From Sphingomonas naphthae (GTDB lineage: Bacteria > Pseudomonadota > Alphaproteobacteria > Sphingomonadales > Sphingomonadaceae), in the NCBI RefSeq assembly GCF_028607085.1, contig NZ_CP117411.1, positions 2,790,001-2,854,000 on the forward strand: a stretch of 64,000 bases of DNA, in the 5' to 3' direction. A model generated the notes under the pieces. The model had not been told where the DNA came from, searched no databases, and saw nothing but the letters and a program-made list of their open reading frames with translations. The translations under genes were made by a program, and so were the position numbers. Each line of letters opens with the position of its first letter. The stretch's first letter is position 1. Shown here piece by piece: positions 37,701-53,545 of the stretch.

Positions 37701-37774
37701 TTGTCCGCCGCGACGAACCCCGGGTCCATCGCGTAGCCGAGAAGCTCTGCAAGGGTTTCAATCCGGCCGGTCAT
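34703..37774 (-). CDS. N6-adenine DNA methyltransferase (type IIG/Eco57I-like)
   Basis: Start ATG 37774 overlaps the stop of the HTH gene by 4 bp and gives 1023 aa. The upstream 173 residues of the open frame are out-of-frame sequence of the HTH gene. MTase motif I is VLDPAMGSGVFLVGA (about 355-370), motif IV is VVGNPPWVQLK (NPPW, about 479), and NNIFGVELNATACHVAAFSLYL lies between. The N-terminal ~300 residues have a TPLVFLAEVQ strand but no clear ExK, so nuclease activity is uncertain. The C-terminal ~400 residues are the presumed target-recognition region. It methylates adenine in DNA; the recognition sequence is unknown. Confidence 0.85.
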   Translation of the reverse strand: MTGRIETLAELLGYAMDPGFVAADNFADQPNHRHALRLASQLMQVRAAFGLWTGREGALLGPKHARFTPLVFLAEVQDAAQAQLVHRSVWSQGLAPYLLAVGPDRLWVCQGFAFSSRDWKRFAVEIPFAADRRSPLMTAHDALAPLTARKLRSSLAWRDEARTADEFVDERLLRSLAALSVAFASDAPARKALEPAVINALIARLLYFYFLVDRQFITRERLDAWGLADIGLGSEDEWSLADTTTLFHRLDEVFNGSIFPMPAAYVDAYDATHLNLLRRVIRHGAELGAQDVLQLSFLDYDFASIRTETLSAIYEMFLRNEDKDAGKNFGAFYTPPFLADYTLDRLEDEQPLGATTRVLDPAMGSGVFLVGAYRRIVEASLKKRQTRLPLELLHTLMTNNIFGVELNATACHVAAFSLYLTMLDYVDPLEAADYTKWPTLVGRPRLFPPMLTATNERAANIRAGDFFSTVADDLRCDLVVGNPPWVQLKTLRSEDADAYLKRHRVAIGDKQAAELFLWKAYRDHLADMGVIGLLLPQKSLVNKFSDKFTLALREKAELIGIADLAHLRYVLFRRSAARTAGGDGSASERGARQSTAIVVLRKAKPKPGSRFWLYRPLRSTQPASRNGRLWTLIHDWTQVVWQDVDDLNDTRWRRLFTCSSVDRRILAKLDRQIDAGRLVPLGRLAESIGLHFKIEVDQNLDRRYVLSSDPRRPTYWRRQLGLSPDLAGNPHDAVPLPQSQIDAALPSSRPFLQGNVVLMPRTCETALFVALPVAGSFFIVACFPALAGAPLPPRHTAFLKALADYMATKTFRYLCFTNSRRMTIDRANTELSAVLDLPWPFGDLSATDWEDFAAANEATRDAMLCAALGLPLIYQKLVEEFTTFREGFADGKTPIGAMRESDETETDAYLDAVLHELDGGRGRYDARVVPVGPDLLAAVVQHRAASADGFDVEQLAAQAADLYRNMGASSVAQSRYLWHSRASMASVLLKPREWMHWTLDRAFADADLVTAAAMAGYNTQDAA

Positions 37775-38235
37775 CGCTTGGCGCTCCCGACCGCTTGGGG
37801 CGCAAACGGCAGCGGGACCTGATCCTGCCCGACCTCGCCGGAGAAGGCCGCCGACCAGAGGCGTTCGATGATCGGCTGGCACGGCACCACAATGGCGGCC
37901 GCATCGACTTCCAGCCGGGTCGCTTCCACCAACCTTACGGCGTCGGCGCTTACTACCAGGCAGGAGGTACGTAGCGCTGCGATACGCTGGGCGGCGCATA
38001 GCTCGAACAGGTCGTCCCAGCGCCTGACCAAGCCGCCAACGCCGACGCCGAACGTGCCGATGATCGATGCCACCACCGCAAGCCCGACGACTTCGCCCGC
38101 GGAGAACCGGGCCTTCTTCCCGCGTTTGGCGGCCAACCTGGGCACGACCTTGCGCCAGTGCCGCCAAGCCTCCGGCGACACGTTCGCGAAGCTGCGCGCC
38201 TGCTCGCCAGTAAACTGAATGGTGTTTGCGGCCAT
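37771..38235 (-). CDS. MerR-like HTH protein preceding the methylase
   Basis: Start ATG 38235 behind AGGAAAG gives 154 aa. The N-terminal part (TIQFTGEQARSFANVSPEAWRHWRKVVP ... ARFSAGEVVGLAVV, about residues 4-60) resembles a MerR-type winged helix: a helix that picks conditions, then RFSAGEVVGLA like the 'fts-ddl' wing. No MerR effector coiled coil is present. Residues 60-150 are hydrophobic with a Gly-rich VVASIIGTFGVGVGGL stretch. It is first in the operon, so it may regulate the defence island. Similarity to the HTH component (MAD1-type) of methylation-associated systems is possible but not provable here. Confidence 0.65.
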   Translation of the reverse strand: MAANTIQFTGEQARSFANVSPEAWRHWRKVVPRLAAKRGKKARFSAGEVVGLAVVASIIGTFGVGVGGLVRRWDDLFELCAAQRIAALRTSCLVVSADAVRLVEATRLEVDAAAIVVPCQPIIERLWSAAFSGEVGQDQVPLPFAPQAVGSAKR

Positions 38236-38595
38236 CTTTCCTGTGGTCAGCAACAAGGAACTTTGTCCTAGACCACTCCGGTGAGTTCGCCAAGAGCCGT
38301 GGAAAGCGATGCCAGGCGGCGCGCGATCCTGGTCAACCATGCGGCGGGGTAGGCGATCGGGCGGCCCGTCCAACCCCATGATTGAACGATGGATTACAGG
38401 TGGCAGCTAAGCGGCGCCGAATGACCGGAACTGGGATAGATGTTGAAGTGCTGCCGCCGTCGGGTAAAGTTGGGCAGGAACTTGACCCCTAGCGGTACTC
38501 GGCCGTCCGGGTCGGCGATGGCGCAGCTTCGGTGACCTCGGCACGGACGAGACCGAGAGACCGAGTGGGGTCGCGGGGAGCGGGGGATTGCGGGT
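38236..38595. promoter_or_regulatory. Divergent promoter region between the methylase operon and the kinase operon
   Basis: A 360-bp stretch without a gene on either strand that separates two divergent operons. It contains GGGGAGCGGGGGA just before the TTG start at 38596. No operator can be named. The HTH protein encoded just to the left is a reasonable candidate regulator. Confidence 0.4.
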
Positions 38596-41500
38596 TTGCG
38601 CGTTGTTCATGTGCCGTGCGGGCCGTTCGCCAACGACAGCGAGCTCAAGGCCTTTAATGCGGTTAATCAGGAGATCAGGAAGCAGGACGGGGATGGCACT
38701 GCCTACGTCCTGACGAACCTGACGCACCCCAACCTGCGTGGGCAGGCGGACGAGATCGACATGGTGGTGATCGGGCCGGCCGGGGCCGTGGTCATCGAGG
38801 TCAAGCACTGGGATGCCTCCGCGATGCGCCGCCCCGACATGGCGGATCCTGCGGCCGAGCTCATCGTCGCCAAGTCCAAGCGGATCGCGGGGAGGCTCCG
38901 AGCCGCCGATCGGAGCCTCGGGTTCGTCGCGCCTGCGTTCCTGCTGACCCGGGAGACCGGGACCCTCAGGAAGAACGGCTCCCCCCTCCGCCACGCGATG
39001 GGTGTCGTGGCCCATGGTCTGAAAGACGTGGGCGAGCTCGTCGCGGCCGCCGCTTCGCCGGGTCGGACGGATCCCAGACGCCTCGCCGACCTGCTGGCGG
39101 TTCGCTACAACCTTGCGGAAGCCGGCCGGCTGAAGCGTCTCGGCCGCTTTGACGAGTTGCGCCTGCTCACCGACGAGAATGAGCGATTCCAGAGAATCTT
39201 TACGGCCCGGGATCCGTGGACCGGTGATCGGGTGCTGCTTCACACTTACGATCTCTCGGCTGCCCCGGCGGGCGAAGCGGCTGCGCTCAGCGACCGCCGG
39301 GCCCGGCGCGAATTCGACGTGGTGCAGCGCTTTCAGAAGTCGCCTCACATGCCGAGCCTCGTAGACACCTGGCAGTCGGTTCCGAACTACGCGGGCGAGA
39401 TGTATTTCTTCAGCGTCAGCGACAGCGCGGCGACGCCAGTCTCCGCTCTCATGGGCGAGGCGGAGTGGACGCCCGCCCAGCGTCGCGACTTCGCAGTGCG
39501 CGCGCTTTCCGCTCTGGGCGAGTTCCTCACGGCGGAGCAGGGCCCGCTGCTCCACCGCGCGCTCGACGGCGAGAGCCTGCGGGTCCGTGCCGATAATAGC
39601 CCGCTGTTCGCAGGATGGCGCTGGGCGCGGCTTGCACCCGCCCAGACGGTCAGCGTCAATCAGCTCGGTGATCGGTCGGGAGACTTCGCAGCGCCGGAGG
39701 TGATCGCAGGCGGGCTCGCCGCCGCCACGCCCAAGTCGGACCTCTACAGCCTGTGCGCCTTGCTAGCTGACCTCTTTCGCGACCCGGCCGACGCGGACGT
39801 GCGAGCGGCTCTGCTCCTTGGCTGCGACCGCGACCCCGCGCGCCGACCGGGGGTCGAGGAGATCCTGGACCTCCTCGAGAACCGCGCAGCCGACGAACTC
39901 GTCGCCACGGCTCGCGATCAGGTGGAGGTGGTCTCGCCGTCGCGGTGGGACGAGGGCCACCGATTCCAATGGAAAAACGGCACCTACCGTGTGATATCCG
40001 TGCTGGGCCAGGGCAGCATCGCGAGGACCTTCAAGCTCGAGCAGCTCGACGCCCGCGGCGAGCCAATCGGCACGTTCGTTGGCAAGGCGGTGTTCAATGC
40101 TGAGTTTGGCCCGACTTCGCTCGCGGCCTACCAGCGGATGCGCACCTTCTCCTTGCATCCCGGCCTGTCCAACATCTTGGAGTGCGCGAGCGACTGGAAC
40201 CCTCATGGGCTGACCGCGCTGCTGCGCTGGAGCCAAGGCTCGCCCCTGAACGCCTGGCGCGGCGACCTGGATTTCATTGCGCAGGAGGTAGGGGCCGACA
40301 CGCCTGAGCAGCTCGCGACCGACTGGTTCGAGAGGCTCTGCGAGGCGCTGCACGCCCTGCATGGCCAAGGCTGGGTGCACGGCGACGTCAGCCTCTCCAA
40401 CATCCTCGTCGACGAGTCCAAGGTGATCCTGATCGACTACGACCTGTCGGGCCCGGACGGGCATCGCCCGCCGAGCTCTGGCACCCTTCTCTACGCGTCG
40501 CCCGAGCGTCGCGACGGTGCGGAGGCGCTCGCAAGGGACGATGTCTACAGCCTGGCCGCCTCGCTCTTCCACGCCATCACTGATAGGCCCCCCGCGCGCT
40601 CGACGAGCGGATCGGGTCTCGACTGGAACGAGAAGGAACGGGCGGCCTTTCCGGACATCGTGCCCATCCTGGACCGCGCGACCGGTCCGGCCGAGGCGCG
40701 GTTTCCCGATGCGGGTGCAGCTCTTGCCGCTCTCCGTGCCCGGCGCGTCTCGGCTCCCGCCCCTGTTCAGGCCGTCGTCGCGCCGCCGCCCTCGCAACCC
40801 GTCCTGCGGCCGAACGTCGTTCCGCGCGTTCGAGACATCCTCAGCACCTATCCAGGCTCGCGCTTTGGAAATGCTGAGACGCGCGGTCTCGACACCGACT
40901 TCGCGTTCGATACGTACGTGCCGACCGGCCTCGACGATACGCTCCCTGCTGAGATCAGGGCGGGTGAGGTCTCGCTAGTGATTCTGTGCGGCAATGCCGG
41001 GGACGGCAAGACGGCGTTCCTTCAGCGGCTCGTGCAGACGCTTGGCGGGGAGCCGCCGCAGTCGAGCGAGCGCGTCTGGTCGGGAACGCTGGCAGCCCGA
41101 AAGGCCATGATCAACCTAGACGGCGCTGCCAGCTGGAAGGGCCGCTCGGCCGACAGCCTGCTCGACGAGCTCTTCGCCCCGTTCCTCGACGGCCCGCCGC
41201 GCGACGGCAGCATCCATCTCGTCGCCGTGAACGACGGGCGCCTGATGGAGTGGATCGAACAGGCCGAGGCGGAGCGGGGCGAGCGGCCCCTCACGCTTGC
41301 GCTCACGGCGGCGCTGACGCAGCAGAGCGAGGGGCTCGCGCCTCACATTCGCCTGGTCGAACTGAACAACCGTTCTCTCGTCGGCGGACTCGTTGTCGGC
41401 CAAGGTGTGATATCCACCCGGTTTGTCGACGAGCTGGTCCGCCGGCTGGTAGGAGGCGACCAGGCTCCAGAGATCTGGGCGCCGTGTCGCACGTGCACCG

Positions 41501-42564
41501 CGCAGGCGCGTTGCTCCATGCGACGATCCGCCGATCTGATGGGAGCCAGCGCCGATCCTACGGTCCTGGCCGACGGTGCGCGACTGCGCGAGCGGCTGAC
41601 CGAGGCGCTGCAGACGGTCCACCAGCGCAACGAGATCCACATCACGGCTCGCGAGCTGAAGGCCGCGGTCAGCTATGTCCTCTTCGGCCTGCACGACTGC
41701 GAGGACCTCCATCGTGATGCCGAACTCGAGCCGCACGATCCAGCCGACCACGCGTTCAACCCCGAGTCACCGGGCCGGCAGGGCGAGCTCCTTCGTGAGC
41801 TGGCGCGGCTCGACCCGGCGCTAGAGGGCAACGCTCGCGTTGACCGGTATCTCGTCGGGAAGGGCGGGTCTCATCCGGCCCATGGCGCGCGTCGCTTCCG
41901 TGATCGGGTCGGAAGGCCCGTGCCTCTGCGCGACGCCCGGCGACGGGCCTATCTGAGCTGGTCGGTCGACCAGGTCGAGGCGGTGGGAGGCGACGATCAT
42001 GCCTTGACGCTGAGGGACGGACGCAGGGCGAGCGAGTTCCGCCGGTTCCCGCTGCTTTCTGATGCGGAGCAGGCGCAGATCAAGAGCCGGCTGTGCAATG
42101 GGCTCTCTCGCCTCGAGCCGCTGCCCGACCTCGCCTATCGCGACGCCGAACGGGTGCCGATCCGCGTTCTTCCGCGGACCCCCACGGAGACCGCGTTCTG
42201 GATTGAGAAGTCCTCATCGCGCTTCTCGCTCGCCCCCGAGCGCTTCCAGCCGATGGCCGGCCTTGAGACGCTCCATCGCTTCCTCGTGCTGAGCTACGAG
42301 CCGGATCACGGCGGTGTCGAGGAGCTGCTGGTGCCGCTCGAGCTCTACAGCCTGCTCATGGACCTTGCGGATGGCGTCCAGATCCTGGACGCCTTCTCCG
42401 ACGACGTCTTCGCCAATCTCGGGGTCTTCACGAGCCGCCTTGCTCAGGAGGACGAGCGTCGGCTCAACGCCTGGAACCCCGTTGACAGCGACGTCGTACG
42501 TCAGCTTGGCGTCTCGGACCGGTCGGGCAGGCAGGCGATACTTCTTTCTAGGGAGAGCGCGTGA
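38596..42564 (+). CDS. NERD-pseudokinase-kinase-ATPase defence protein (PglW/MAD6-like with DptF-like ATPase)
   Basis: The 1322-residue protein has a TTG start behind a purine-rich SD. A NERD nuclease-like domain spans about residues 35-130 (DEIDMVVIG, then VVIEVKHW: D55, E68, K70). A kinase fold lacking catalytic residues covers about 195-440 (HRALDG for HRD; only the APE-like AAPEV and SDLYSL kept). An apparently active Ser/Thr kinase lies at about 455-680 (GQGSIART loop, Lys in VGKAVF, HGDVSLSNIL, IDYDLSG, YASPE). A linker leads to a P-loop ATPase, CGNAGDGKTAFLQ (about 798-810), with a Cys cluster CRTCTAQARC (about 963). NERD + kinase is the PglW (BREX type 2) and MAD6 layout; the GNAGDGKT ATPase recalls DptF. 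It is probably the sensor/signalling part of an anti-phage system. Confidence 0.85.
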   Translation: MRVVHVPCGPFANDSELKAFNAVNQEIRKQDGDGTAYVLTNLTHPNLRGQADEIDMVVIGPAGAVVIEVKHWDASAMRRPDMADPAAELIVAKSKRIAGRLRAADRSLGFVAPAFLLTRETGTLRKNGSPLRHAMGVVAHGLKDVGELVAAAASPGRTDPRRLADLLAVRYNLAEAGRLKRLGRFDELRLLTDENERFQRIFTARDPWTGDRVLLHTYDLSAAPAGEAAALSDRRARREFDVVQRFQKSPHMPSLVDTWQSVPNYAGEMYFFSVSDSAATPVSALMGEAEWTPAQRRDFAVRALSALGEFLTAEQGPLLHRALDGESLRVRADNSPLFAGWRWARLAPAQTVSVNQLGDRSGDFAAPEVIAGGLAAATPKSDLYSLCALLADLFRDPADADVRAALLLGCDRDPARRPGVEEILDLLENRAADELVATARDQVEVVSPSRWDEGHRFQWKNGTYRVISVLGQGSIARTFKLEQLDARGEPIGTFVGKAVFNAEFGPTSLAAYQRMRTFSLHPGLSNILECASDWNPHGLTALLRWSQGSPLNAWRGDLDFIAQEVGADTPEQLATDWFERLCEALHALHGQGWVHGDVSLSNILVDESKVILIDYDLSGPDGHRPPSSGTLLYASPERRDGAEALARDDVYSLAASLFHAITDRPPARSTSGSGLDWNEKERAAFPDIVPILDRATGPAEARFPDAGAALAALRARRVSAPAPVQAVVAPPPSQPVLRPNVVPRVRDILSTYPGSRFGNAETRGLDTDFAFDTYVPTGLDDTLPAEIRAGEVSLVILCGNAGDGKTAFLQRLVQTLGGEPPQSSERVWSGTLAARKAMINLDGAASWKGRSADSLLDELFAPFLDGPPRDGSIHLVAVNDGRLMEWIEQAEAERGERPLTLALTAALTQQSEGLAPHIRLVELNNRSLVGGLVVGQGVISTRFVDELVRRLVGGDQAPEIWAPCRTCTAQARCSMRRSADLMGASADPTVLADGARLRERLTEALQTVHQRNEIHITARELKAAVSYVLFGLHDCEDLHRDAELEPHDPADHAFNPESPGRQGELLRELARLDPALEGNARVDRYLVGKGGSHPAHGARRFRDRVGRPVPLRDARRRAYLSWSVDQVEAVGGDDHALTLRDGRRASEFRRFPLLSDAEQAQIKSRLCNGLSRLEPLPDLAYRDAERVPIRVLPRTPTETAFWIEKSSSRFSLAPERFQPMAGLETLHRFLVLSYEPDHGGVEELLVPLELYSLLMDLADGVQILDAFSDDVFANLGVFTSRLAQEDERRLNAWNPVDSDVVRQLGVSDRSGRQAILLSRESA

Positions 42565-44384
42565 TGCCCAGCGAGACGCGACGGGTGATCGAATCCGTCC
42601 TGGGGAGCCAGATGACGGCCCAGATCTGGACCAGCACCTATTCGCCCGTGTTTCCGTTCGTGCCGCAGGACTTCTCGGTCGGGGCCGTTCTGCCGATGAT
42701 GCTATACCTGTTCAGGTGGGGGAACCGGCGGGGGAAGGGCCAGTTCGCGGCCGTCTACGGCACGAACGGCGCGCCCACGATCACCTCGACCGTGGAGAAG
42801 CTGGTCTCTGATCCCGCCATCGAGGGTTTCGACACCGCTTCGGGTAGAGCGATCCTGGGTGACTTCCTCCTGACCTCGATCCTGGAGAACAGGCGGCACT
42901 CGGAGTCCCACGACGAGCAGGTCCAGCGCTGCTTCGCGAACCACTACTACGCCTCCTGGATCGACCTCCCGATTAGCGCCGCTAACCTCCGCGGGGTGCC
43001 CGAGCTCGTCACGGCACTTCTCAGCGACCAGCGCGAGGGCGAGACGGTCGAGCCCTTCGGGGAGCGGGGGCGCTACCGGGTCGGCGCCCGGATCCAAGAC
43101 AACGACCTGCTGCGAGCTCTCGCGCCTGGAACGTCGACAACCGGCATGAAGAGCGACCTTCGCTCGGACGAGCTTGACGAGTCCGTGCCTCTTCCGCTCG
43201 ACCAGCTGCTGACCGTGCGTCTCGCCCAGGGCTGCGGCGAGGCCCCGGCCAAGGCGGTGGGACGAAACAATCCTGGACCGATCCCGAACCAGCGCCCGAT
43301 CGCGGCGCAGGCGGGTGAGAACTTCAGGGACGACCTGCTCGTCTTCCTGGACTGCTACGCGGCCGGCGGGTCGATGCCTCGATCCGCGCTTCTCCAGATG
43401 CTGGAGTCCGCGATCGCGATCGGCCTCACCACGATCCTAACCGCATCGGTGGAGATCATGAACCGGTGGGCCGCCACGGGCATTCTTCCGGACCACGCCG
43501 ATGCGCCTCCGTTTCCCATCTTCTTCGATTGTTCGAGCGGGTCGGACCCGGTCCTGCGGGCGACGTCGGAGGAGTCCGGCTTCCTTTTGCGGCAGGCGCT
43601 CAATCGACTGCCCGCCGTCCTCATGTACGCGAGGCTGCTCGACCACTACGTGCGCAGCGAGTCAGAACTCGACCGGCGCAAGCTGCCGCCCACCTCGCCC
43701 GACGCGACCCAATGGCTGAACCTGACGGGCAGCATCCTGAACGGCAGTCACGAGGAGGCCAGGGACGCCCGCCGGTTCTTCAGCAAGACCGCCCGCAAGC
43801 TGAGGGACGCCGCCGACGCGGCGGAGGATCTCGAGCTGCGAGTTCTCCTGGGGGAGGAGGGGAGCCACTCCGATCCCGGGCGCGCACTCGCGGAGGCACT
43901 GAGCACGGCGTTCGTGGAGTCCTCAAACGGCGGCACCGAGCGCCTGAACAACTTTCTGTCGTCGGCGCTCATGATCGACGAGGTCAACGGACTCGCCAAG
44001 CGCCGCAAGGTGGTGCTCCACCAGACGCGGCGGAAGGGGCAGGGTCGCAGGGGCGACGCGCTGTCGTTCGTGATGACCAACCCGGTCATCGAGTTCCTGG
44101 TCCATCGCCACATCCGCAGGATCGGGAAGGGACGTAAGGAGCAGCCGCTGTCGTATCCCGACTTCCTTCGGGTCCTGCGTGAACGCTACGGGTTCTACGT
44201 CGATCGTGCGCCGCCCAACCTGGCGGTGCCCAGCGACGTCCTGCAGCGCAACCGTCGAATGTTCGAGCGCCGCCTACGCGACTTGGGCCTGCTCGTGGGC
44301 GTGAACGACGCCGAACGGATGAAGAAGATCAAGTGGCGATATCGCGCGCAGCAGGACGCGCAGGTCAGGGAGCAGGCGGCGTGA
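42564..44384 (+). CDS. DptG/MAD7-like defence protein
   Basis: ATG 42564 overlaps the upstream stop (TGATG), giving 606 aa. No catalytic motif is seen. The protein is mostly helical. The C-terminal part is the most distinctive: FLSSALMIDEVNGLAKRR, LSFVMTNPVIEFLVHRHIRR, FLRVLRERYGFYVDRAPP and FERRLRDLGLLVGVNDAE. I associate this pattern with the middle gene of kinase/ATPase defence trios (DptG of phosphorothioation-dependent restriction, MAD7). It likely bridges the kinase-ATPase and the nuclease-ATPase. It is strictly coupled to both neighbours. Function is inferred from position. Confidence 0.65.
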   Translation: MPSETRRVIESVLGSQMTAQIWTSTYSPVFPFVPQDFSVGAVLPMMLYLFRWGNRRGKGQFAAVYGTNGAPTITSTVEKLVSDPAIEGFDTASGRAILGDFLLTSILENRRHSESHDEQVQRCFANHYYASWIDLPISAANLRGVPELVTALLSDQREGETVEPFGERGRYRVGARIQDNDLLRALAPGTSTTGMKSDLRSDELDESVPLPLDQLLTVRLAQGCGEAPAKAVGRNNPGPIPNQRPIAAQAGENFRDDLLVFLDCYAAGGSMPRSALLQMLESAIAIGLTTILTASVEIMNRWAATGILPDHADAPPFPIFFDCSSGSDPVLRATSEESGFLLRQALNRLPAVLMYARLLDHYVRSESELDRRKLPPTSPDATQWLNLTGSILNGSHEEARDARRFFSKTARKLRDAADAAEDLELRVLLGEEGSHSDPGRALAEALSTAFVESSNGGTERLNNFLSSALMIDEVNGLAKRRKVVLHQTRRKGQGRRGDALSFVMTNPVIEFLVHRHIRRIGKGRKEQPLSYPDFLRVLRERYGFYVDRAPPNLAVPSDVLQRNRRMFERRLRDLGLLVGVNDAERMKKIKWRYRAQQDAQVREQAA

Positions 44385-47300
44385 TGGGACCCGACCACGT
44401 CAGGTATCTGGCGCAGGCGATCACGAACCGCTTGGGTGCCCCGAAGGCGGGCGCGGTCGCGTTCATGCGGTGCCTTCCGTCCGAGCAGATCGATGCCCTC
44501 GCCGACAGCGACGCGTTCGTGGTGCCGGGCTGGAACGTGAACGCCGTCGTCGATGCGGCCGGCCTGCGTCGCATCACCGCCGATCAGGCGGTGGAGCAGC
44601 GCGAGGACAAGGCCGATGCCGCCCTACTGCTGATCGATCCGCTCCGCGCGGGTGCCGGCCTCGACGGCATCTACAGCGCCGGTCGCGAGATCGGGGAGGG
44701 CGAGCTCTTCGGCGAGGCCCTGAAGCTCGCACGCAAACCTTTCTTCGGCAGGATGCGCGTGCTCGACGACGCGGTTTGGCGAGCCGAGCGGCTCGGCCGC
44801 CGCCGGCGGCTGACGCCCTGGTCGAAGTTCGACTACTACGTCAGCGCTGCCCAGGGCTCCGGCGGCGCTCTTGCTCGGCTCGGGCTGTGGCCCATCGCCA
44901 GCGACGGGGATCCTTCGACGGGCGAGCTCGACCTCTCCGCCGAGCTCGCCGACCGGCTCCTATACGTGAGCGACACCCGTGCGATCGCGGAACGGGTGCG
45001 GGCCCTTCAGCTGGACGAGTCCGACGAGAAGGGCGCGGTTCTCGAGCAGGCCCTCAGGATCGCGTCGGGCATGAGCCCGGAGGAGGCTGCCAGACGGATC
45101 GAGGACCAGCGCGACCTGTGGCTGGGTTCGATCAAGCCCGGCTTCGCCAGCGAGGAACTCCGACGGATCCAGCTCTCCTCTTGGCGTGACGCGAGGGGCA
45201 ACGTTCTGAAATGGTCGGGCCTCGCCAAGCCCGAGGCCGACGACGGCGCACCGAGGCTAATCTTGGATCGGGCCGCACCGTCCAGAGAGCGCGCTCAGCT
45301 CACCGTCCGCTGGACCACCGAGCCTGAGGAGCTGGCGGCCGGCAACGTCGAATACCGCATCTCCGTCGTCGCCGGCGAGGACGTCCTCGCCGAGCGCGTC
45401 GTCCACCACCGCGACCATCGCACCCAGCAGGTCGTGATCACGGTAGACGACTTCGAGGAGCTCGAGGGCACCGAGAAGTTCGATGCGACCATCGACGTCA
45501 CGGCAGTCGGGTTGGAAGGCGTGGGCGCCGTGCGAAGCGAGGCCTTTGTGCTGCAGTTCGGCGAGACGGTGAAGCAGCTCACGAGCGCCTCGGGCCAGGA
45601 GGTAAGGACGCTGATCGAGGGCGCGATCAATATGCCTGACCGAGATGCCTTCGATGCTCTGGTCACCGGCCCCGGTGCCGCGGCGCGAGCGGTCGAGGAC
45701 AAAAAGGGCTTCCTAACCTGGAAGGGAGACGCGGCTACGAGAGGAGCGCGCGTGTTCCGGCCGGCGCTCCTTCGTGCGGTGGAGGCGGACTGGGCCCGCC
45801 GGACGGGCACCATCGGCTACTGGACGCAGGTGGTGCGCGCCGATGGCTCCCCGGTCGGGGATCTCGTGTTCACTGAGATCGAGCAAGCGGACCGCAGCGC
45901 GTCCACGGACCGCGCACGTGAGGCGAGCCGGAAGCTCGCTGGCGAACTCGGGGCGGCGGGCCTTCTAGGTGTGGTCATACCGCCCGGCTGGTCCGCCGCG
46001 GACAACTATATCAACGCTTGGGAGAAGGCCCTCGACGTAGGCGCGCCCGTCCTGGCCCGTCACGGCACCGTGGAGGTGCGCGGGCAGTCTGGTGCGCTGA
46101 TCGGGCTGCTCGTGACCCCACTGCACCCGGTCCGCTTCGCGTGGCATGCTCACTACGATCAGGTGGTCGCCCATGCGCGCTTCGAGCAGGGGCTTGCGCC
46201 GCAGCACATCCAGTCGACGGTCCAGCCGGTTGACTCATCCTTCTTCCCGTTCGCGCTGCCCGGGGATGGGTGCGCGGGCTTCGTCTTCGCCGACGTGATC
46301 GGTTTTCACACGGTGGCGATGACTGTCGACGGCGAGCGCGAGCCGAAGGCCGCGACAGCGCTGCTGGCCGCCTGCCTGGGCTCTGGCACGGCCACGATCC
46401 CCTCCATCGGACAGGCGAGCGCCGCCGCCATAGCACGCGAGCTCGGACACTACCTGGACTGCTACGGCGGCGCGAACGGCGAGCGGCCCGACCTCCTCGC
46501 CATCCAGGCCTGGCGCGCCGGTGACGGCCTGACGGTCTCGAGCGCGCTTGGTCAGACGCTCACGGCACGCGGGTTCAACGACGACGAAGACGAGGTGGAC
46601 TCGCCGCTTTGCTTCACGCTCGACCTGTTTCACGCGCCGCGTTCCGGAGGCGCGGGACAGTTCTTATCCGCCGTCGGTCAGCGTCGCCGCGCCGGTGGTC
46701 AGGTTCTTGATCAGAGGGACCGCTGGCTTGCGGAGACCGCGACGCGGCCGGGCGAGGTGCTGGTCCCCCGGCTTCGCTGGGCCAAGCACGAGGAGCCGTC
46801 GGTGGACGATGACTCCGCATGGGCCCGGATGCGGGCCTCGCATGTTAGCCTCGCGTTCGATCTGTTCCAGACGGGTCTGGGGACCGTTCCCTCGTGCACG
46901 CTCTCGGACGTGCGGCCACTGCATGCCTGGGGGCTCCTGCGCACGCTCGAGCGGCGTGCCGTCCCCGGTCAAGACCATGAATGGATGACCTACGCGGCAC
47001 CCGAACTTGGCGGTGAGCCCGGCCCGGAGGGTCGCACTGCCAGCGACCGGCTTCGCCGCATCGACCGTGCTACGGCTCGTGCCACGGCACGCGCGCTGGG
47101 TGGCACGAGCGAGGATTGGCCGGTGCTCAAGACGCGGCTGTCGCCCGAGGACCGTCGCCGGATCGACAGGATGCATGAGCAGAGCGACTGGGTGATCACG
47201 CTCGATCGAAACGCGGCGCTAGACTACTTCGACTCCCCCCAGGGTAGTCCGGACGCCTACGAGCGGTTCGTCATCGACACCGTGCCGGAGCGTTCGGATC

Positions 47301-49432
47301 TGACAGCGATCCAGCTCGTCACCTCCACGACGAAGCTCGACGCGGTCCGAGACCTTGTGGACGAGGCGCTCGGTGACATGGGCCTGAGCAGCAGCGAGCG
47401 GAACAGCCGCTTCCTGGTCGCGCAGCTGAAGGCGTTGAGTGGCAGGCTCGCGATCCGGCTCGCGGACGGCGGGACGAGGACTGGCGAGCTGATCGCGCTG
47501 GCGCTGATGTATGCTCATTGCGCGGCGGGCGGGGAGCAGAAGGGCCCTTGGCTCAACGTCGCCCAGGGCGTGCTGATACCGGTCGACGAGATCGCCGACC
47601 ACGCGCCGATCGTGAACACGCCGGCGGCCGAGGGCGAGACCGCCCGGCGTGCCGACTTCATCCACGTCAGCGCTCCTGCCCGCGGACCGCTCGAGTTTCG
47701 CTTCGTCGAGGTGAAGAACCGGCAGCATCTGCGAACGGCAAGGCAGCCCGACATGCTCGCGCACATGGTCGCCCAAACCGGTGAGCTGCGCGAACGGTGG
47801 ATGAACTGGTTCTTCGGAGATGGCCTGCAGTCGCTGGACCGCGTCGTCCGGCGAGCTCAGCTGGCCAAGCTCCTGCGGTTCTACGTCGATCGCGCGGCGC
47901 GCCACCGGCTGTCGCCGCAGGCCACGGCCCGTCTGAGCAGCGAAATCGATCAGATGGTGCTCAAGGAGACCTATCAGCCCGGCACGGTGGCCGATCCCGA
48001 CGTCGGCTACGTCTTCTGCCCGGAGCACCGCACCGGACAGGTCGAACGCATTTACTCGGAACGGAGCGAGACGGCGTTGTGGCTCTTTGGGCCGACGATG
48101 CTCCCAGACGAGACGACCGGGACCCCCGGCACGTTGCTCCTGCCGAGTGAACCGCCGGAGTTCCAGGAGCTCAGAGCCGAGGAGGACGCGGTCGGAGGTG
48201 GCGAGGAGCCTGGGGCAGGTTCGGTCCCAGCGCTGCGGGCCAACGCGGAACTGCCGGCGTTGGGCGACGTACTTGGAACCGAGCCCGCGCCCGCCGCCGG
48301 CATGAGTGTCGCCTCTGGCGGATCTCTCGAACCGACGACCTCGGCGACGATGTCGGGCCCGGCTGCCGAGAAAGACGAAGGAGTTCCGTTATCGGTCCGG
48401 GATCCGGTCGACGTCCGCCTGGGCGAGTCCCTGACGCAGGTTCCCGTGGACTGGTCGCTGTCGATCCGCAGCAACCCGCACATGATGATGGTGGGACTTC
48501 CAGGCATGGGGAAGACGACTGCGCTCATCAACATCTCGAAGCAGCTGACGGCCGCCGGGATCGCGCCGGTGATCTTCTCCTATCACGACGACATCGACGA
48601 GAAGCTGGCGGACGCGATCGGGCCCATGCGGACCATCGACTTCGACGGCCTGGGGTTCAATCCCCTGCGCGTCGACGCGCCGGGACCGATGGCCTACATC
48701 GACGTCGCGGGAACGCTGCGGGACATCTTCGCCTCGATCTTTCCCGATCTGGGAGAGATCCAGCTCGAGGAACTCCGCGGCGCGATCCGGCAGAGCTACG
48801 ATGATCTCGGTTGGAACGACCGCGCCGCGCAGCGCCCGGCGCCGCCGCGGTTCCGGACGTTCCTCGACATCCTGAAGTCCCGCCCCAAGCCCAACCAGAA
48901 TCTGCTCGCCCGCCTTCAGGAGCTCGACGACTACGGCTTCTTCGACGGGGAGGTTGGAGGCGGCGGCATCCTAGTCGATCGCAAGCCGACGCTCATCCGG
49001 GTGCACCTCAGCACCAACGAGATCGTCCAGCGCGCTTTCTCCTCTTTCGTCCTTTACAGCATCTACAAGGACATGTTCCGGCGCGGCGTGCAGCAGAGCC
49101 TCACTCATGCGATTATCTTCGACGAGGCGCACCGGGCGGCGAAGCTGAAGCTGATTCCACGCCTGGCGAAGGAGTGCCGCAAGTATGGCCTTGCGCTGAC
49201 GCTCGCGTCGCAGGGCGTCAGGGACTTCGATGCAGGCCTGTTCGAGGCCGTGGCCAACTACCTGATCCTGCGGGTGACCGAGGCGGACGCGCGCACGCTC
49301 GCGCGTAACTCTGGCCCGACAGCGGACCAGCAGCGGACGACCGACCGGCTGAAGGCGCTGGAGCCCTATCAAGCGATGTTCTTCTCCGCGGCCACGCAGC
49401 GGCCGACCTCCTTGCGGCTGAACGCCGACTAG
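44384..49432 (+). CDS. Large nuclease-HerA/FtsK-type ATPase (DptH/MAD8-like)
   Basis: ATG 44384 overlaps the previous stop (TGATG); the product has 1682 aa. The N-terminal ~1050 residues are unassigned, with all-beta stretches near 300-380 (EYRISVVAGEDVLAERVV). Around 1090-1115 there is a PD-(D/E)xK-like core: RRADFIHVSAP, then LEFRFVEVKNRQHL (D ... E-x-K). The C-terminal ~330 residues are an ATPase of HerA/FtsK type: Walker A GLPGMGKTT (about 1371), Walker B HAIIFDEAHRA (about 1577), sensor LTLASQGVRDF and a late RVTEADARTLARN. DptH and MAD8 share this size and order. It is the likely DNA-translocating effector. Third and last gene of the operon. Confidence 0.8.
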   Translation: MGPDHVRYLAQAITNRLGAPKAGAVAFMRCLPSEQIDALADSDAFVVPGWNVNAVVDAAGLRRITADQAVEQREDKADAALLLIDPLRAGAGLDGIYSAGREIGEGELFGEALKLARKPFFGRMRVLDDAVWRAERLGRRRRLTPWSKFDYYVSAAQGSGGALARLGLWPIASDGDPSTGELDLSAELADRLLYVSDTRAIAERVRALQLDESDEKGAVLEQALRIASGMSPEEAARRIEDQRDLWLGSIKPGFASEELRRIQLSSWRDARGNVLKWSGLAKPEADDGAPRLILDRAAPSRERAQLTVRWTTEPEELAAGNVEYRISVVAGEDVLAERVVHHRDHRTQQVVITVDDFEELEGTEKFDATIDVTAVGLEGVGAVRSEAFVLQFGETVKQLTSASGQEVRTLIEGAINMPDRDAFDALVTGPGAAARAVEDKKGFLTWKGDAATRGARVFRPALLRAVEADWARRTGTIGYWTQVVRADGSPVGDLVFTEIEQADRSASTDRAREASRKLAGELGAAGLLGVVIPPGWSAADNYINAWEKALDVGAPVLARHGTVEVRGQSGALIGLLVTPLHPVRFAWHAHYDQVVAHARFEQGLAPQHIQSTVQPVDSSFFPFALPGDGCAGFVFADVIGFHTVAMTVDGEREPKAATALLAACLGSGTATIPSIGQASAAAIARELGHYLDCYGGANGERPDLLAIQAWRAGDGLTVSSALGQTLTARGFNDDEDEVDSPLCFTLDLFHAPRSGGAGQFLSAVGQRRRAGGQVLDQRDRWLAETATRPGEVLVPRLRWAKHEEPSVDDDSAWARMRASHVSLAFDLFQTGLGTVPSCTLSDVRPLHAWGLLRTLERRAVPGQDHEWMTYAAPELGGEPGPEGRTASDRLRRIDRATARATARALGGTSEDWPVLKTRLSPEDRRRIDRMHEQSDWVITLDRNAALDYFDSPQGSPDAYERFVIDTVPERSDLTAIQLVTSTTKLDAVRDLVDEALGDMGLSSSERNSRFLVAQLKALSGRLAIRLADGGTRTGELIALALMYAHCAAGGEQKGPWLNVAQGVLIPVDEIADHAPIVNTPAAEGETARRADFIHVSAPARGPLEFRFVEVKNRQHLRTARQPDMLAHMVAQTGELRERWMNWFFGDGLQSLDRVVRRAQLAKLLRFYVDRAARHRLSPQATARLSSEIDQMVLKETYQPGTVADPDVGYVFCPEHRTGQVERIYSERSETALWLFGPTMLPDETTGTPGTLLLPSEPPEFQELRAEEDAVGGGEEPGAGSVPALRANAELPALGDVLGTEPAPAAGMSVASGGSLEPTTSATMSGPAAEKDEGVPLSVRDPVDVRLGESLTQVPVDWSLSIRSNPHMMMVGLPGMGKTTALINISKQLTAAGIAPVIFSYHDDIDEKLADAIGPMRTIDFDGLGFNPLRVDAPGPMAYIDVAGTLRDIFASIFPDLGEIQLEELRGAIRQSYDDLGWNDRAAQRPAPPRFRTFLDILKSRPKPNQNLLARLQELDDYGFFDGEVGGGGILVDRKPTLIRVHLSTNEIVQRAFSSFVLYSIYKDMFRRGVQQSLTHAIIFDEAHRAAKLKLIPRLAKECRKYGLALTLASQGVRDFDAGLFEAVANYLILRVTEADARTLARNSGPTADQQRTTDRLKALEPYQAMFFSAATQRPTSLRLNAD

Positions 49433-49809: not shown

Positions 49810-50103
49810 TCAGCCAGTCGAGATAGAAAGCCCCTGGTCGATGACGTTCTCGTTGGACGAGCGCTTATGCTCGATGACAACAGGCGCGTTGTTCTCATCG
49901 ATGCCGAGCGTGCCCATCCGCCCGCCTTCGTTGGTGACGAACTCCGACGCGAGGAACCGCACGCCCAGCAGAGCTTCAAGATTGGCTTCGAACAGCGTCT
50001 GGAGCGACTTCTCCAGCGCCGTATCCCCGCCGGGCAGCTCGGCCGCGCCGGATGGCGTGGTGCGAAACAGCTTAGATCGCTCATGCGGCGTATCGTCCAT
50101 CAT
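49810..50103 (-). pseudogene. Truncated NucS/DUF5655-like nuclease gene (frameshift)
   Basis: The frame starts MMDDTPHERSK at 50103, overlapping the restriction-methylase stop by 23 bp. Residues about 30-90 match the DUF5655/NucS-like nuclease start: LQTLFEANLEALLGVRFLAS, GRMGTLGIDENNAPVVIEHK (D ... E-x-K). The usual continuation is NENVI-x-QGLFYLDWLM. Here it reads QGLSISTG and stops. Restoring one T in CTTTC (about 49826) gives GLFYLDWLM again, so a 1-nt deletion broke the gene. The sequence further 3' no longer resembles the family, so the tail is lost too. It was probably a partner nuclease of the neighbouring enzyme. Confidence 0.7.
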
Positions 50104-53100
50104 TGAGGCGGCGGGCCATGCCGAGGCCGGCAAGCGCGTCGAGCACCGGACGCACGGTGGCGGCGCGCTTACCCTTGAAGCTGCGGGCGATGTCGCTCGC
50201 GCCAAGCGGCGCGGGCGCGGCGGCGAGAATCGACTGCACCGCGCCGACCTGCTCGGGCAAAGTCGCCGGCCACGGAATGACATTGCTGGCCGGCGCCACC
50301 GCGGCCTCGCCAAGGTCGAGCGTGGTCGCGACCGGCGCGTGGTAGCCGGGGTCCTGGAATTCGGAGCGCAGGTAGCGCACCATCCCGCGCGCCTCTTCGG
50401 CCGCACGCTCCTTGTTGAGCGCGACTAGGCGGTCGAGGATCGTCTCCTCGCCCAGCGTGCCGGCGCGATGCTCGTCGCCCCAGCCATAGGCATCCGCCAC
50501 TCCCTCGTCGATCGCGTGGTGATGCTGGCGGATCAGCGTGACGAGCCCGCGATCGTGTATGTCGCGCTCCTGCGGCGTGAGCGCACGGCCCTCGCGCAGC
50601 GCTTCGAGGACGTTGTAGAGCTTGGTGAGCGTCAGGTCTGCGTGCTCGGCGAGCACGCGCTTGCGGAGAGCGTCCAATGCTTCGGCATCCGCACGGATGC
50701 GAGCAGTCAGCGATCCGGAAACGTCTGCGGGGAAGGGAAACGGATCGAAGCATTCGCCGATGTTGTAGTTTAAATCGTTGCCGACACCTTGCTTAGCTCC
50801 CCAAGCGATGCTCCAAATAGAGTGAAACTTGGAGCTCAGCACCGCGAGCGCCAATGCATCCGAAAGCGCGAACGCCACCAAACGGCTCTCTGCGAGCGTG
50901 GTGATGTCAGTGAATGCGAACATGCGATGTTTCGCTGTCCGCGCGGTAATGACGTATCTATGAAGCCCGGAAAGAGCGGCTCTCAAGTCGTTCCTTGGTT
51001 CTCCATATATCCACCAGCGATCCCGATATGACTTGCGAGCATTTGTCTGACGCTGAGGTAGCACAGTCGCATGAAGATGCTGATAGAGGCGGGGATGCTC
51101 CTCAACGAGGTTCCGCTCCTCCAGTCCATAAGCATCGATCGTATATAGCCCTCTGCCACCGGACGTAAGATCGCGACCGCTTGTATAGGGCCGGATAATC
51201 GACGCGGATGCGGGCTCGAGATTAAGCAGGTTCTGACGTTCGAGTTTATCAATGATGAACCCCGACCCGATCAGGGTCGCTCCCAAGGACGCAAGCCCTG
51301 TGTTCGCCCGTAGCGGTTGAGCTGAGAGCAAATCGGCTCCCACCCGCAAGTTTGCTCCGACCACCCCTGTTTTTTCGCTCAGCACCTCGAGGCCCGGGAT
51401 TTTGCTCTCCGACTGAACTGCCAGCGCCTTCCCTGCTATCCTCCCGGAAGCAGCTACCGAGAGAGCAACCCGGACAGCTGCCGAGCCTGTTTCATCAATC
51501 CAAGGGTGATCGGCTATCGCGAAGGTGATCGAGAAATCCTGCATCCCGGCGAGGTGCTTCGCCAACACTTGCCGATTGAGGGTCTGTGTCAGCGAGTTTG
51601 TGGTGATGAAGCCAAAGCGCTTAGCTTCCCCTGCCTGAACAGCTCTTGCCGCGATCTCCCACCAGTACATGACGAAGTCGACGGACTGTGGAACTCGCCA
51701 AGCGCTAAAGAGCGCGTCCACGTAGCCACCGCCCAGTCGCTCCCGCATGCGCTTGTTGCCAATGAACGGCGGGTTCCCAACGATGAAGTCAGCCTTCGGC
51801 CACGTCGCCGCACGCGGATTGACGTAGCGATACACGTCTACCTGCGCCGCCTCGTCCGGAACTGGCTTGCCGGTGACCGGATGCGCCTTCATCGTCTCGC
51901 CGTCCCAGCGAGTGACGGTTGCGCCGGACGCGTCGCGCTCCAGCACGCGCTCGTCCCATGCGATCAGCGCGTCGCGGTTCTCGATGGTGCGGATGTCGCG
52001 TAGGATCGGTTCGGGCGGTGGACGGTCGGCACCGTTCACGCGGAAGTGCCACTGGAGATAGCCGATCCACAGCACCAGCTGCGCGATAGCGGCGGCGCGC
52101 GGGTTGATCTCGATGCCGAGGAAGTTCTCGGGCGTGATCGTGTGGCCGGTCAGCTCGGCGAGATACTGGTCGTCCCCGAGATCGACGAGGAGGTCGAGCA
52201 CCTCACCTTCCAGCTCTTTCATCCGCGCCATGGCGACGTAGAGGAAGTTGCCCGTGCCGCAGGCGGGATCGAGCACGCGAGTTTGGGCAAGGCGGGTATG
52301 GAAGGTCTCCACCGTGCGGCGCGCTTCCTCCGCCTTGCCCTGGTCAATGAGCTCCGACGCGGCGACGCGCACGCCCGCCCAGTCGGCGCGCAGCGGCTCG
52401 ATGATCGTCGGCCCGACCAGTCGCTCGACATAGGCGCGCGGCGTATAGTGGGCGCCGAGCTTGGCGCGTTCCTTGGGATTGAGCGCGCGCTCCAGCAGCG
52501 TGCCGAAGATGGCGGGCTCGACCTCGGTCCAGCGATGCTCGGCCGCCTGGATCAGCACCTCCAGCTCCTCGGCATCGAGCGGGATGGCGGTGCGATCCTT
52601 GAACAGATAGCCGTTGAACTTGCGGAGCGGCACGCCGAGCGCGGGGGAGAAGTCGCCCGCATCCATCGCCGCCCACAACGCGGTGAGCTGGTGCTCCAGG
52701 TGCTGCGGCGCCGCCCGCTGCGCCTTGAGCAGGTTGGTGAAGCTCTTCTCCGGGATCAGCCCGCTATCTTCCGCGAACATTGTGAAGAGCAGGCGCATGA
52801 GGAAGCCGCTGGTGCGCTCGGCGGTGTGGCCGCGCTTCTCCAGCCGGCGGGCGACGGTGGCGAGCAGGTCGGCAATATCGCGTGTGACGCGGGCCGCGCG
52901 GGCGGCGGGATCGAGGCTGGTGGGCACGTCCCAGATGGCTGCCAGCCGCTTGCGCACGTCTGGATCGCGCAGGTCGTCGAGCATGATCCGATAGCGTGAG
53001 CGATCGGGAAACTGGGCATACGATTTCCCCGTACCGGAGAAGTCGGAATAGACCTCTATGCAGTATCCGATATCGGCAACGAGCAGGAACGGCGGCCAGC

Positions 53101-53545
53101 CGTGGTCGGCGGGAAGCGCCTTGGCGTAGCGTTCGGCTTGGCCCTTGGCCTGCACCATCGCCTTCGCCCAACCCGGCGTGCCACGCTTCGCGGTGCCCCG
53201 CTTGAGACGCGCGAAGGCAGTCTGGCCAAACAGGTCGAGATCGTCTTCGCCGCGCTCCGCGGCGGCGCGATCGGCCTCGCTCCCTTGCTTCGCTTCGAGG
53301 ATGAAGGCGCCGCGCTTGTAGCAGTCGATCCGGCCGAAGCTGACCGTGCCGTCGCCGTTATCCTGGAACACGCGACGCTCGAAGACATAGTCGTTCTGGG
53401 CATCATCGGTGCGGCTGCCGCGCGGCGGTTCGACTCCGATCAGCCGGCACAGGCCGTTGATGAAGCTCTGAGTGTTCGCGAGCTCCGATCCACCTGTGTC
53501 GCGCCACTCCGCGATGAACTGTTCGACGTCAGAAGTCTCCCCCAT
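50081..53545 (-). CDS. MmeI-like single-chain restriction-methylase (type IIL/DrmMI-like)
   Basis: The 1154-residue protein begins MGETSDVEQFIAEW at ATG 53545. The N-terminal nuclease part has GRIDCYKRGAFILEAKQGS (D74, E84, K86: D-x9-ExK). A helical connector (about 200-380) is followed by the gamma-class N6-adenine MTase: motif I VLDPACGTGNFLYVA (about 425) and motif IV FIVGNPPFIG (about 589). The C-terminal ~450 residues form the target-recognition domain plus a helical tail. MmeI-type enzymes use one specificity domain for cutting and modification; DISARM DrmMI is related, but no other drm gene is here. The TRD-coding part (about 50.75-51.75 kb) is visibly lower in GC than the rest, suggesting domain exchange. 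Confidence 0.88.
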   Translation of the reverse strand: MGETSDVEQFIAEWRDTGGSELANTQSFINGLCRLIGVEPPRGSRTDDAQNDYVFERRVFQDNGDGTVSFGRIDCYKRGAFILEAKQGSEADRAAAERGEDDLDLFGQTAFARLKRGTAKRGTPGWAKAMVQAKGQAERYAKALPADHGWPPFLLVADIGYCIEVYSDFSGTGKSYAQFPDRSRYRIMLDDLRDPDVRKRLAAIWDVPTSLDPAARAARVTRDIADLLATVARRLEKRGHTAERTSGFLMRLLFTMFAEDSGLIPEKSFTNLLKAQRAAPQHLEHQLTALWAAMDAGDFSPALGVPLRKFNGYLFKDRTAIPLDAEELEVLIQAAEHRWTEVEPAIFGTLLERALNPKERAKLGAHYTPRAYVERLVGPTIIEPLRADWAGVRVAASELIDQGKAEEARRTVETFHTRLAQTRVLDPACGTGNFLYVAMARMKELEGEVLDLLVDLGDDQYLAELTGHTITPENFLGIEINPRAAAIAQLVLWIGYLQWHFRVNGADRPPPEPILRDIRTIENRDALIAWDERVLERDASGATVTRWDGETMKAHPVTGKPVPDEAAQVDVYRYVNPRAATWPKADFIVGNPPFIGNKRMRERLGGGYVDALFSAWRVPQSVDFVMYWWEIAARAVQAGEAKRFGFITTNSLTQTLNRQVLAKHLAGMQDFSITFAIADHPWIDETGSAAVRVALSVAASGRIAGKALAVQSESKIPGLEVLSEKTGVVGANLRVGADLLSAQPLRANTGLASLGATLIGSGFIIDKLERQNLLNLEPASASIIRPYTSGRDLTSGGRGLYTIDAYGLEERNLVEEHPRLYQHLHATVLPQRQTNARKSYRDRWWIYGEPRNDLRAALSGLHRYVITARTAKHRMFAFTDITTLAESRLVAFALSDALALAVLSSKFHSIWSIAWGAKQGVGNDLNYNIGECFDPFPFPADVSGSLTARIRADAEALDALRKRVLAEHADLTLTKLYNVLEALREGRALTPQERDIHDRGLVTLIRQHHHAIDEGVADAYGWGDEHRAGTLGEETILDRLVALNKERAAEEARGMVRYLRSEFQDPGYHAPVATTLDLGEAAVAPASNVIPWPATLPEQVGAVQSILAAAPAPLGASDIARSFKGKRAATVRPVLDALAGLGMARRLNDGRYAA

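Follow-up and report, generated by a model that had tools for sequence, protein, structure and literature searches.

A probable standalone DndFGH-type restriction complex with NERD and kinase domains fused to DndF in Sphingomonas naphthae

The 64,000-nucleotide stretch of DNA analysed here (the window) comes from Sphingomonas naphthae (assembly GCF_028607085.1, contig NZ_CP117411.1, positions 2,790,001-2,854,000) and contains a trio of adjacent + strand genes, P1, P2 and P3, whose products are related to MAD6, MAD7 and MAD8 of the methylation-associated defence system MADS and to the restriction proteins DndFGH and SspFGH. The genes lie at 38596-42564, 42564-44384 and 44384-49432 (coordinates are window-relative throughout), and both junctions are TGATG overlaps, with the ATG of P2 (42564) inside the stop codon of P1 and the ATG of P3 (44384) inside that of P2. 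The first-pass annotation of this DNA, which had described three rightward genes overlapping in this way, holds in coordinates and order, as judged from the open reading frame (ORF) calls and both junctions. The ORFs as listed are 38596-42564 (1322 aa), 42561-44384 (607 aa) and 44333-49432; because the ATG of P3 sits in the P2 stop codon, P3 is taken as a protein of 1682 aa and not as the 1699 aa of the mechanical ORF. The proteins and their domains are as follows:

38596..42564, + strand: P1, NERD - pseudokinase - Ser/Thr kinase - DndF/SspF-type P-loop protein (MAD6-like), 1322 aa, TTG start as called
38656..38814, + strand: NERD (PD-(D/E)xK) domain of P1, aa 21-73; D55, E68 and K70 identical in 44/44 covered relatives
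39193..39915, + strand: pseudokinase of P1, about aa 200-440, limits approximate; HR at 320-321
39997..40641, + strand: protein kinase of P1, aa 468-682; K480, D597, N602, D614
40804..42561, + strand: DndF/SspF core of P1, aa 737-1322; P-loop GNAGDGKT, N879, CxxC...C cluster
42564..44384, + strand: P2, DndG/MAD7-like protein, 606-607 aa (ATG 42564 or GTG 42561)
44384..49432, + strand: P3, DndH/MAD8-like protein, 1682 aa
46358..47341, + strand: S-adenosylmethionine-methyltransferase (MTase) fold of P3, aa about 659-986; no [DNS]PP[YFW] motif, AGDG-type turn conserved
47471..48028, + strand: PD-(D/E)xK-like nuclease core of P3, aa about 1030-1215, limits approximate; D1091, E1109, K1111
48416..49429, + strand: HerA/FtsK-type ATPase of P3, aa about 1345-1682; K1377, Q1610, D1580, E1581

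The proposal that P1 joins a NERD domain, a pseudokinase, an intact kinase and a P-loop ATPase in one chain is borne out by matches in Pfam, NCBIfam and PADLOC and by residue conservation. Pfam recognizes NERD (PF08378, 2.6e-07) and Pkinase (PF00069, 2.7e-15), NCBIfam returns MAD6 (NF047741, 6.9e-31, 107.4 bits with a cut-off of 460), the PglW profile has its best stretch at aa 40-394, and the P-loop part matches the PADLOC SspF profile (8.2e-19). The HR pair of the pseudokinase is kept in 43/46 covered relatives; the window protein reads HRA, with no Asp following. Among the 48 relatives covering the second kinase, K480 is kept in 45, D597 in 44, N602 in 47 and D614 in 45. The Walker A lysine of the P-loop, N879 and the CxxC...C cluster are each found in 53/53 covered relatives, and the residue after N879 is D in 40/53. 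A profile of this F core, made from five sequences of which four belong to the searched set of 48, matches SspF proteins (1.7e-15, 3.6e-11 and 7.7e-10), a kinase-less F protein (2.3e-26) and, weakly, DptF (4.5e-4). Sequence searches of the PDB with the F core and with P2 found no relative.

P2 had been called DptG/MAD7-like, and both a match to the MAD7 profile (NF047733, 7.8e-30, 104.4 bits, cut-off 410) and a structural match to DndG agree with this. The single PDB match under 0.001 of its predicted model (pLDDT 89, pTM 0.90) is DndG 7exx (Foldseek, 7.1e-05), and VIA superposes the model on the same structure with Z 17.0 (404 residues aligned, rmsd 6.6); the row after it has Z 4.1.

The HerA-type ATPase claimed for P3 is likewise confirmed: this end of the protein matches DndH (1.6e-17) and mad8 (2.5e-16) in PADLOC and the solved DptH 7es4 (3.1e-12), and K1377 and Q1610 are kept in 64/64 and D1580 and E1581 in 63/63 covered relatives. 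The middle part (aa 430-1255) aligns with the MAD8 of a MADS-type locus (L125, 1.3e-31 over 686 columns) and with SspH (2.3e-06 over 239 columns), the latter hhalign alignment spanning the nuclease region. For the ExK nuclease-like core that had been claimed here, the D-(n)-ExK motif is conserved among 69 covered relatives (D1091 in 64, E1109 in 63, K1111 in 63), and the order of helices and strands in the predicted model of the fragment (pLDDT 84, pTM 0.86) fits a restriction endonuclease; no solved restriction endonuclease is among the structure rows, which are taken up by MTases, and this is not evidence against such a fold. Within the model an MTase fold is found with a best VIA Z of 12.2. 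Its [DNS]PP[YFW] motif is missing in 66/67 P3 rows, the sole occurrence being in a relative other than the window protein, and the relatives retain the AGDG-type turn at 712-715 (G713 in 68/68), so that binding of a ligand may still take place. Since the catalytic residues are almost invariant in the covered relatives, all five enzymatic centres of the trio (NERD, kinase, P-loop, nuclease and HerA) look selected, not one alone. A switching of target specificity in P3 was considered and rejected: in eight relatives identity varies little from one end of P3 to the other, the linker 1261-1320 being the only hypervariable part, and this gives no sign of an exchange of specificity.

The trio is rare in its own family and widely scattered outside it. 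A P3 match is present in 1/199 genomes of the family (the genome of the window itself) and 2/385 of the class; two Rhizobium conjugative plasmids carry the complete trio, with P3 identities of 78% and 58%. A scan of genome contigs with P3, counted from the best 80 of 148 relatives, assigned 69 of the listed matches (L009-L077, P3 identity 31-82%) to the clade of the window and 11 (L078-L088, 24-34%) to a far group. Among the matches listed, the 69 clade loci span 18 named phyla, two being unassigned, and the closest relatives are Bosea and Novosphingobium (P3 81%). Bosea and Novosphingobium belong to different orders. These distant nearest relatives, together with the rarity in the family, suggest that the trio was acquired horizontally; the genus is represented by one genome. 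A scan of viral contigs with the P3 alignment gave 141 pattern matches and no relative.

Gene order was recounted by tblastn, since gene calls had missed P2 in some loci. All three genes are present in 53/69 clade loci, in the order P1-P2-P3 in 52 of these 53, and hence the association is not a chance one; in the remaining 16 loci P1 is missing, alone or together with P2, mostly where the stored DNA ends. One clade locus (L036) has a 1.5 kb gap in the trio, and in another (L067, 14941-16689) the F core carries no NERD or kinase and is placed after P3 instead of ahead of P2. In a tree of the F core (47 rows), 29 clade rows lie on one side of a branch with support 98/95 and 12 MADS-side rows form another group (82/69); DptF, L121 and L122 are on long branches and their own placements are unsure. 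The clade rows comprise the window, L004, L005, L126 and 25 scan loci; the remaining 44 of the 69 scan loci were placed in the clade by P3 identity (31-82% vs 22-34% for L078-L088 and L007). Two duplicates were set aside, L008 (of L023) from the clade counts and L124 (of L081) from the tree.

Neither a Dnd set nor mad1-5 had been noticed beside the trio, and none is found in the flanks examined, which reach only 0.5-4.3 kb upstream of P1 (in the 41 loci where the start of P1 is present) and 0-10 kb beyond P3. No MAD5-, SspC- or SspD-type gene occurs in the flanks of 73 clade loci in a search with 13 queries, and no DndC in a search of the same flanks with one query (L089). The sole MAD2-type match among these 73 loci is an HsdM/MAD2-like methylase in L024 (3.8e-12, 78 bits against a cut-off of 720).

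On this evidence we read the trio, with a probability of roughly 0.78, as a standalone DndFGH-type restriction complex, belonging to a sub-type in which NERD, pseudokinase and kinase domains are fused to DndF. The homology to MAD6-7-8 and Ssp/DndFGH that had been proposed for it is upheld by NCBIfam, PADLOC, the F-core profile, hhalign and the DndG structure. Homology, domain order, kept catalytic residues and the standalone gene context in the flanks examined come directly from the comparison of sequences and structures; by analogy with the characterized complexes, P1, P2 and P3 would assemble into a complex that translocates along DNA and nicks it. P2 and the MTase-fold part of P3 would read DNA, the HerA motor of P3 would move it and the PD-(D/E)xK-like domain would nick or cut it. 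P1 would supply the DndF P-loop subunit and two further enzymes, the NERD nuclease and the kinase, of which the latter may control the activity of the complex or act as a second effector, and the complex would attack invaders and spare self with no cis-encoded DNA mark.

Several results weigh against this reading. The top PADLOC profile for P1 is Mokosh MkoA (2.7e-25), via the kinase. The NCBIfam DptF model TIGR03238 has no match in the genome of the window, and no Dpt model is among the matches of P1-P3 at E 0.1. By hhalign, DptG is not reached from P2 (E 0.14) and DptH aligns with the middle part of P3 at E 0.021 only; as DptG and DptH are out of sequence reach, membership in the Dnd family rests on SspF and SspH, the MAD proteins and structure. 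For P2, a triple winged helix-turn-helix arrangement is a prediction from the DndG match. Foldseek with the P3 fragment found nothing under 0.001 (best 2.2e-03), leaving the MTase fold to VIA, and the nuclease region has no match of its own to a solved fold among the VIA structure rows. Finally, no experiment on the clade of the window was found.

The kind of system to which the trio would belong has been described. PMC10853773 reports DndF proteins that carry a NERD domain with an inactive and an active kinase, an MTase in DndH that has lost its activity, and DndFGH systems that stand alone, and it interprets the fused domains as backup effectors; the fusion of DndF with kinases is restated in PMC12839542. 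The suggestion of an undescribed system in the first-pass annotation therefore does not stand. P1 shares its domain order with the kinase-fused DndFGH of PMC10853773. The trio further agrees with it in the F-G-H gene order, in a DndG-like P2, in a P3 that combines HerA, a nuclease motif and an inactive MTase fold, and in requiring no cis-encoded modification genes; no anatomical difference between the two is shown. PMC10853773 draws no link to MADS, the words MADS and PglW not being in the text. What is added here is the clade, the tie to MADS and the missing recurrent cis mark; the system is real and its kind already described.

DndFGH acts as a nickase and translocase and harms the cell without phosphorothioation (PMC11662687). 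Protection against phage requires each of SspF, SspG and SspH, and cells with SspFGH on its own grow poorly and suffer DNA damage (PMC8092258). The trio resembles SspFGH in the F core, the nuclease region of H and the gene order, but the SspF examined carries neither NERD nor kinase, and in L119 SspB, SspC and SspD precede SspF. A kinase-fused F-G-H also occurs about 6 kb from, and divergent to, SspD, SspC and SspB (L121/L141; G846:C5, about 112.8-134.8 kb), with SspDCB on the opposite strand and two genes between them and the trio. With PglW of bacteriophage exclusion (BREX) type 2, P1 has in common an N-terminal NERD domain followed by an inactive and an active kinase (PMC12839542); the C-terminal half of P1 is the DndF core, whereas PglW has a triple winged helix-turn-helix and iSTAND.

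A homologous trio is part of MADS. A MADS-type locus on a Piscinibacter plasmid (L007, 13595-18780), which adjoins Tn7-like genes (TnsA-type, TniB, TniQ), encodes P2 and P3 proteins over the family cut-offs (MAD7 657.8 of 410, MAD8 230.9 of 175) and a P1 that matches mad6 with 8.3e-221. For the MAD2-type genes of L079 and L081 (341.7 and 696.4 of 720 bits) and the MAD5-type gene of L079 (265.7 of 400 bits), these are the best families by far, at scores under the curated cut-offs. The F core sits behind a kinase in L007 and L079; L081 (733-13360) is a MADS variant with a 643-aa F protein without NERD and kinase and the order F-G-MAD2-MAD5-H. Among 15 MADS-side loci, a count that includes three loci that supplied queries and L124, which repeats L081, a MAD2-type match is present in 8 and a MAD5-type match in 7. 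The other seven MADS-side loci comprise five that are truncated close to P1 or P3 and two, L082 and L083, in which a different gene takes that place. An upstream gene is shared by L082, L083 and L085, where others have MAD2/MAD5, and in L082 encodes a UvrD-type helicase matching PADLOC 'NERD+UvrD'.

As judged from these comparisons, the clade of the window is separate from MADS, and the window trio is homologous to MAD6-7-8, which make up the restriction part of MADS. Both share the gene order and, in most MADS-side loci, the NERD-kinase-F fusion. In contrast, MADS loci carry the MAD2 methylase and MAD5 specificity genes, both missing from the flanks examined in the clade of the window, which forms its own branch and scores below the MAD family cut-offs. 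We infer that MAD6-7-8 constitute a kinase-DndFGH module. No paper linking the MADS genes to DndFGH was found in the literature searched, which covered few subscription papers, and a 2026 review lists the restriction mechanism of MADS as unknown (PMC12904381); the homology ties this part of MADS to a family with known biochemistry.

A complex whose relatives DndFGH and SspFGH are toxic without their mark is kept across 18 named phyla, with nearly invariant nuclease, motor and kinase residues and no recurrent marking genes adjoining, so that the protection of the host can be probed directly in a set of only three genes and their point mutants. Because DndFGH and SspFGH damage cells without phosphorothioation (PMC11662687, PMC8092258), the standalone form needs another brake, and it is possible, if less than probable, that the built-in kinase and pseudokinase are a switch which turns the FGH nuclease off or on upon an infection signal and replaces the DNA mark. 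No modification gene recurs widely in cis, the kinase residues are kept in 44-47 of the 48 relatives, and a phage kinase has been reported to inactivate DndFGH through phosphorylation (PMC12345140). However, phosphorylation alone is insufficient in vivo according to the same source, and whereas the first-pass annotation proposed that the kinase-ATPase fusion triggers the nuclease, this sole published precedent seen is one of inhibition, not activation. Moreover, the same fusion occurs with modification modules, in MADS (L123, L125) and in the trio about 6 kb from SspDCB, and hence the kinase does not simply replace the mark; the clade member L067 does without NERD and kinase on its F protein, and PMC10853773 favours backup effectors. 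A broader proposal, of which we are rather doubtful, is that kinase and pseudokinase, and not DNA modification, gate the translocating nuclease in the clade, NERD-kinase-FGH being a portable module that would be used with methylation (MADS), near phosphorothioation (one locus) or with no recurrent cis mark. Were the kinase gate real, infection would be told from health by phosphorylation state and not by a self-mark.

Alternatively, a self mark could be supplied in trans, whether from phosphorothioation genes unlinked to the trio or from other DNA methylases of the same genome, an explanation that we consider somewhat unlikely. CcrM would be a candidate methylase for alphaproteobacteria. The 50 clade genomes searched (G000, G262 and the genomes of 48 out of 69 scan loci) contain DndC over cut-off in 8, compared with 9/269 in a phylum sample (Fisher p 0.0017), SspD-like genes (E<=1e-5) in 12, compared with 14/269, and SspD at E<1e-40 in 10, compared with 8/269 (Fisher p 6e-5). 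Unlinked phosphorothioation genes are thus commoner in clade genomes than in the phylum sample, possibly reflecting a functional link or defence-rich genomes. Being commoner with the trio, DndC and SspD speak against a purely mark-free reading, although the groups are not phylum- or size-matched and the enrichment is confounded, as the clade genomes are mostly from other phyla and large environmental assemblies. Either gene is present in 18/50 clade genomes, but 32/50 have neither, the genome of the window among them, and, as described above, the flanks of the 73 clade loci hold no SspC, SspD or (with one query) DndC. MAD5 over cut-off occurs in 4/50 clade genomes. For eleven unlinked loci (4 DndC, 3 SspD, 4 MAD5), a comparison with the position of the trio in each genome showed no overlap. 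In the genome of the window no SspD and no DndC over cut-off was found (best DndC-like 77 bits vs 290; DndA, B, D and E were not searched). This DndC-like gene (L142 5802-8924; C1, about 316.8 kb) is of the 3'-phosphoadenosine-5'-phosphosulfate (PAPS)-reductase type, and the gene after it encodes a Lar restriction-alleviation domain.

The genes adjoining the trio in the window include the following:

34011-38292, - strand: divergent operon of three genes, for a helix-turn-helix (HTH)-like protein, an N6-MTase (NPPW, DPAMGSG) and a D-(n)-ExK protein
34703-37768, - strand: N6-MTase/Eco57I of the divergent operon (PADLOC, Pfam)
50081-53545, - strand: full-length MmeI/type IIL-like restriction-methylase (PADLOC 1442 bits)

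The flanking type IIG/IIL-like methylases exist as the first-pass annotation had described them, one an N6-MTase/Eco57I and the other an MmeI/IIL-type protein; the two small proteins of the divergent operon have no Pfam match. That these adjoining methylase operons are the modification partners of the trio, forming with it a new MADS-like system, is very improbable. Their position speaks for it, and restriction-modification-type genes are near some relatives: an N6_N4_Mtase domain is found in 4 of the 107 nearest neighbour genes (38 loci), two of the 107 match PADLOC mad2 (up to 1.3e-16), and an ISP-type restriction-methylase (L005, a fragment in L019, L041) forms a neighbour cluster in 3 loci. 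The PADLOC mad2 profile also matches the window's own methylases (1.3e-12 and 2.1e-14), which score 15 bits against MAD2 (cut-off 720). However, the methylases do not recur beside relatives. With the 13 queries (methylase, Ssp and window-neighbour genes, not covering every methylase), 5/73 clade loci have any match: the window and L004 via the queries' own genes, L020 and L068 via the L004 methylases, and L024 via MAD2. Among the window-neighbour genes, the sole match is that of a PAS/LuxR-type protein in one locus. The HTH-methylase-nuclease operon, proposed as a possible constant divergent neighbour, is not one: it recurs as a unit without the trio on plasmids of Rhizobium sp. WYJ-E13 (L135) and Agrobacterium (pA, L136), the MTase of the latter copy being split. 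The flanking methylases were consequently rejected as part of the system. The commonest neighbour cluster of the clade is of oxidoreductase type (4 loci), and transposase genes, like the ISP-type cluster, are found in 3 loci.

Local loss of mad1-5 from a MADS system is the least probable explanation, and was rejected, also under the refuting condition that the first-pass annotation had set for its own proposal: P1 and P2 match MAD6 and MAD7 and P3 aligns with MAD8, but the scores of the window (107.4 of 460; 104.4 of 410) are, unlike those of L007, far below the NCBIfam cut-offs, its F core lies outside the MADS-side group of the tree, the absence of mad genes is common to the clade loci examined and not local (a MAD5-type gene in 0/73, the weak MAD2-type match in L024), and the MAD5 loci of the 4/50 clade genomes, the window's own genome having none, do not overlap the trio loci. 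With no recurrent partners, and with the operon also occurring without it, the trio is neither a locally deleted MADS nor one half of a fixed trio-methylase system. Transposase genes flank the region on both sides, an rve-type (IS3-like) gene at 32374-33222 (+ strand) and a Mutator-family gene at 62924-63910 (- strand).

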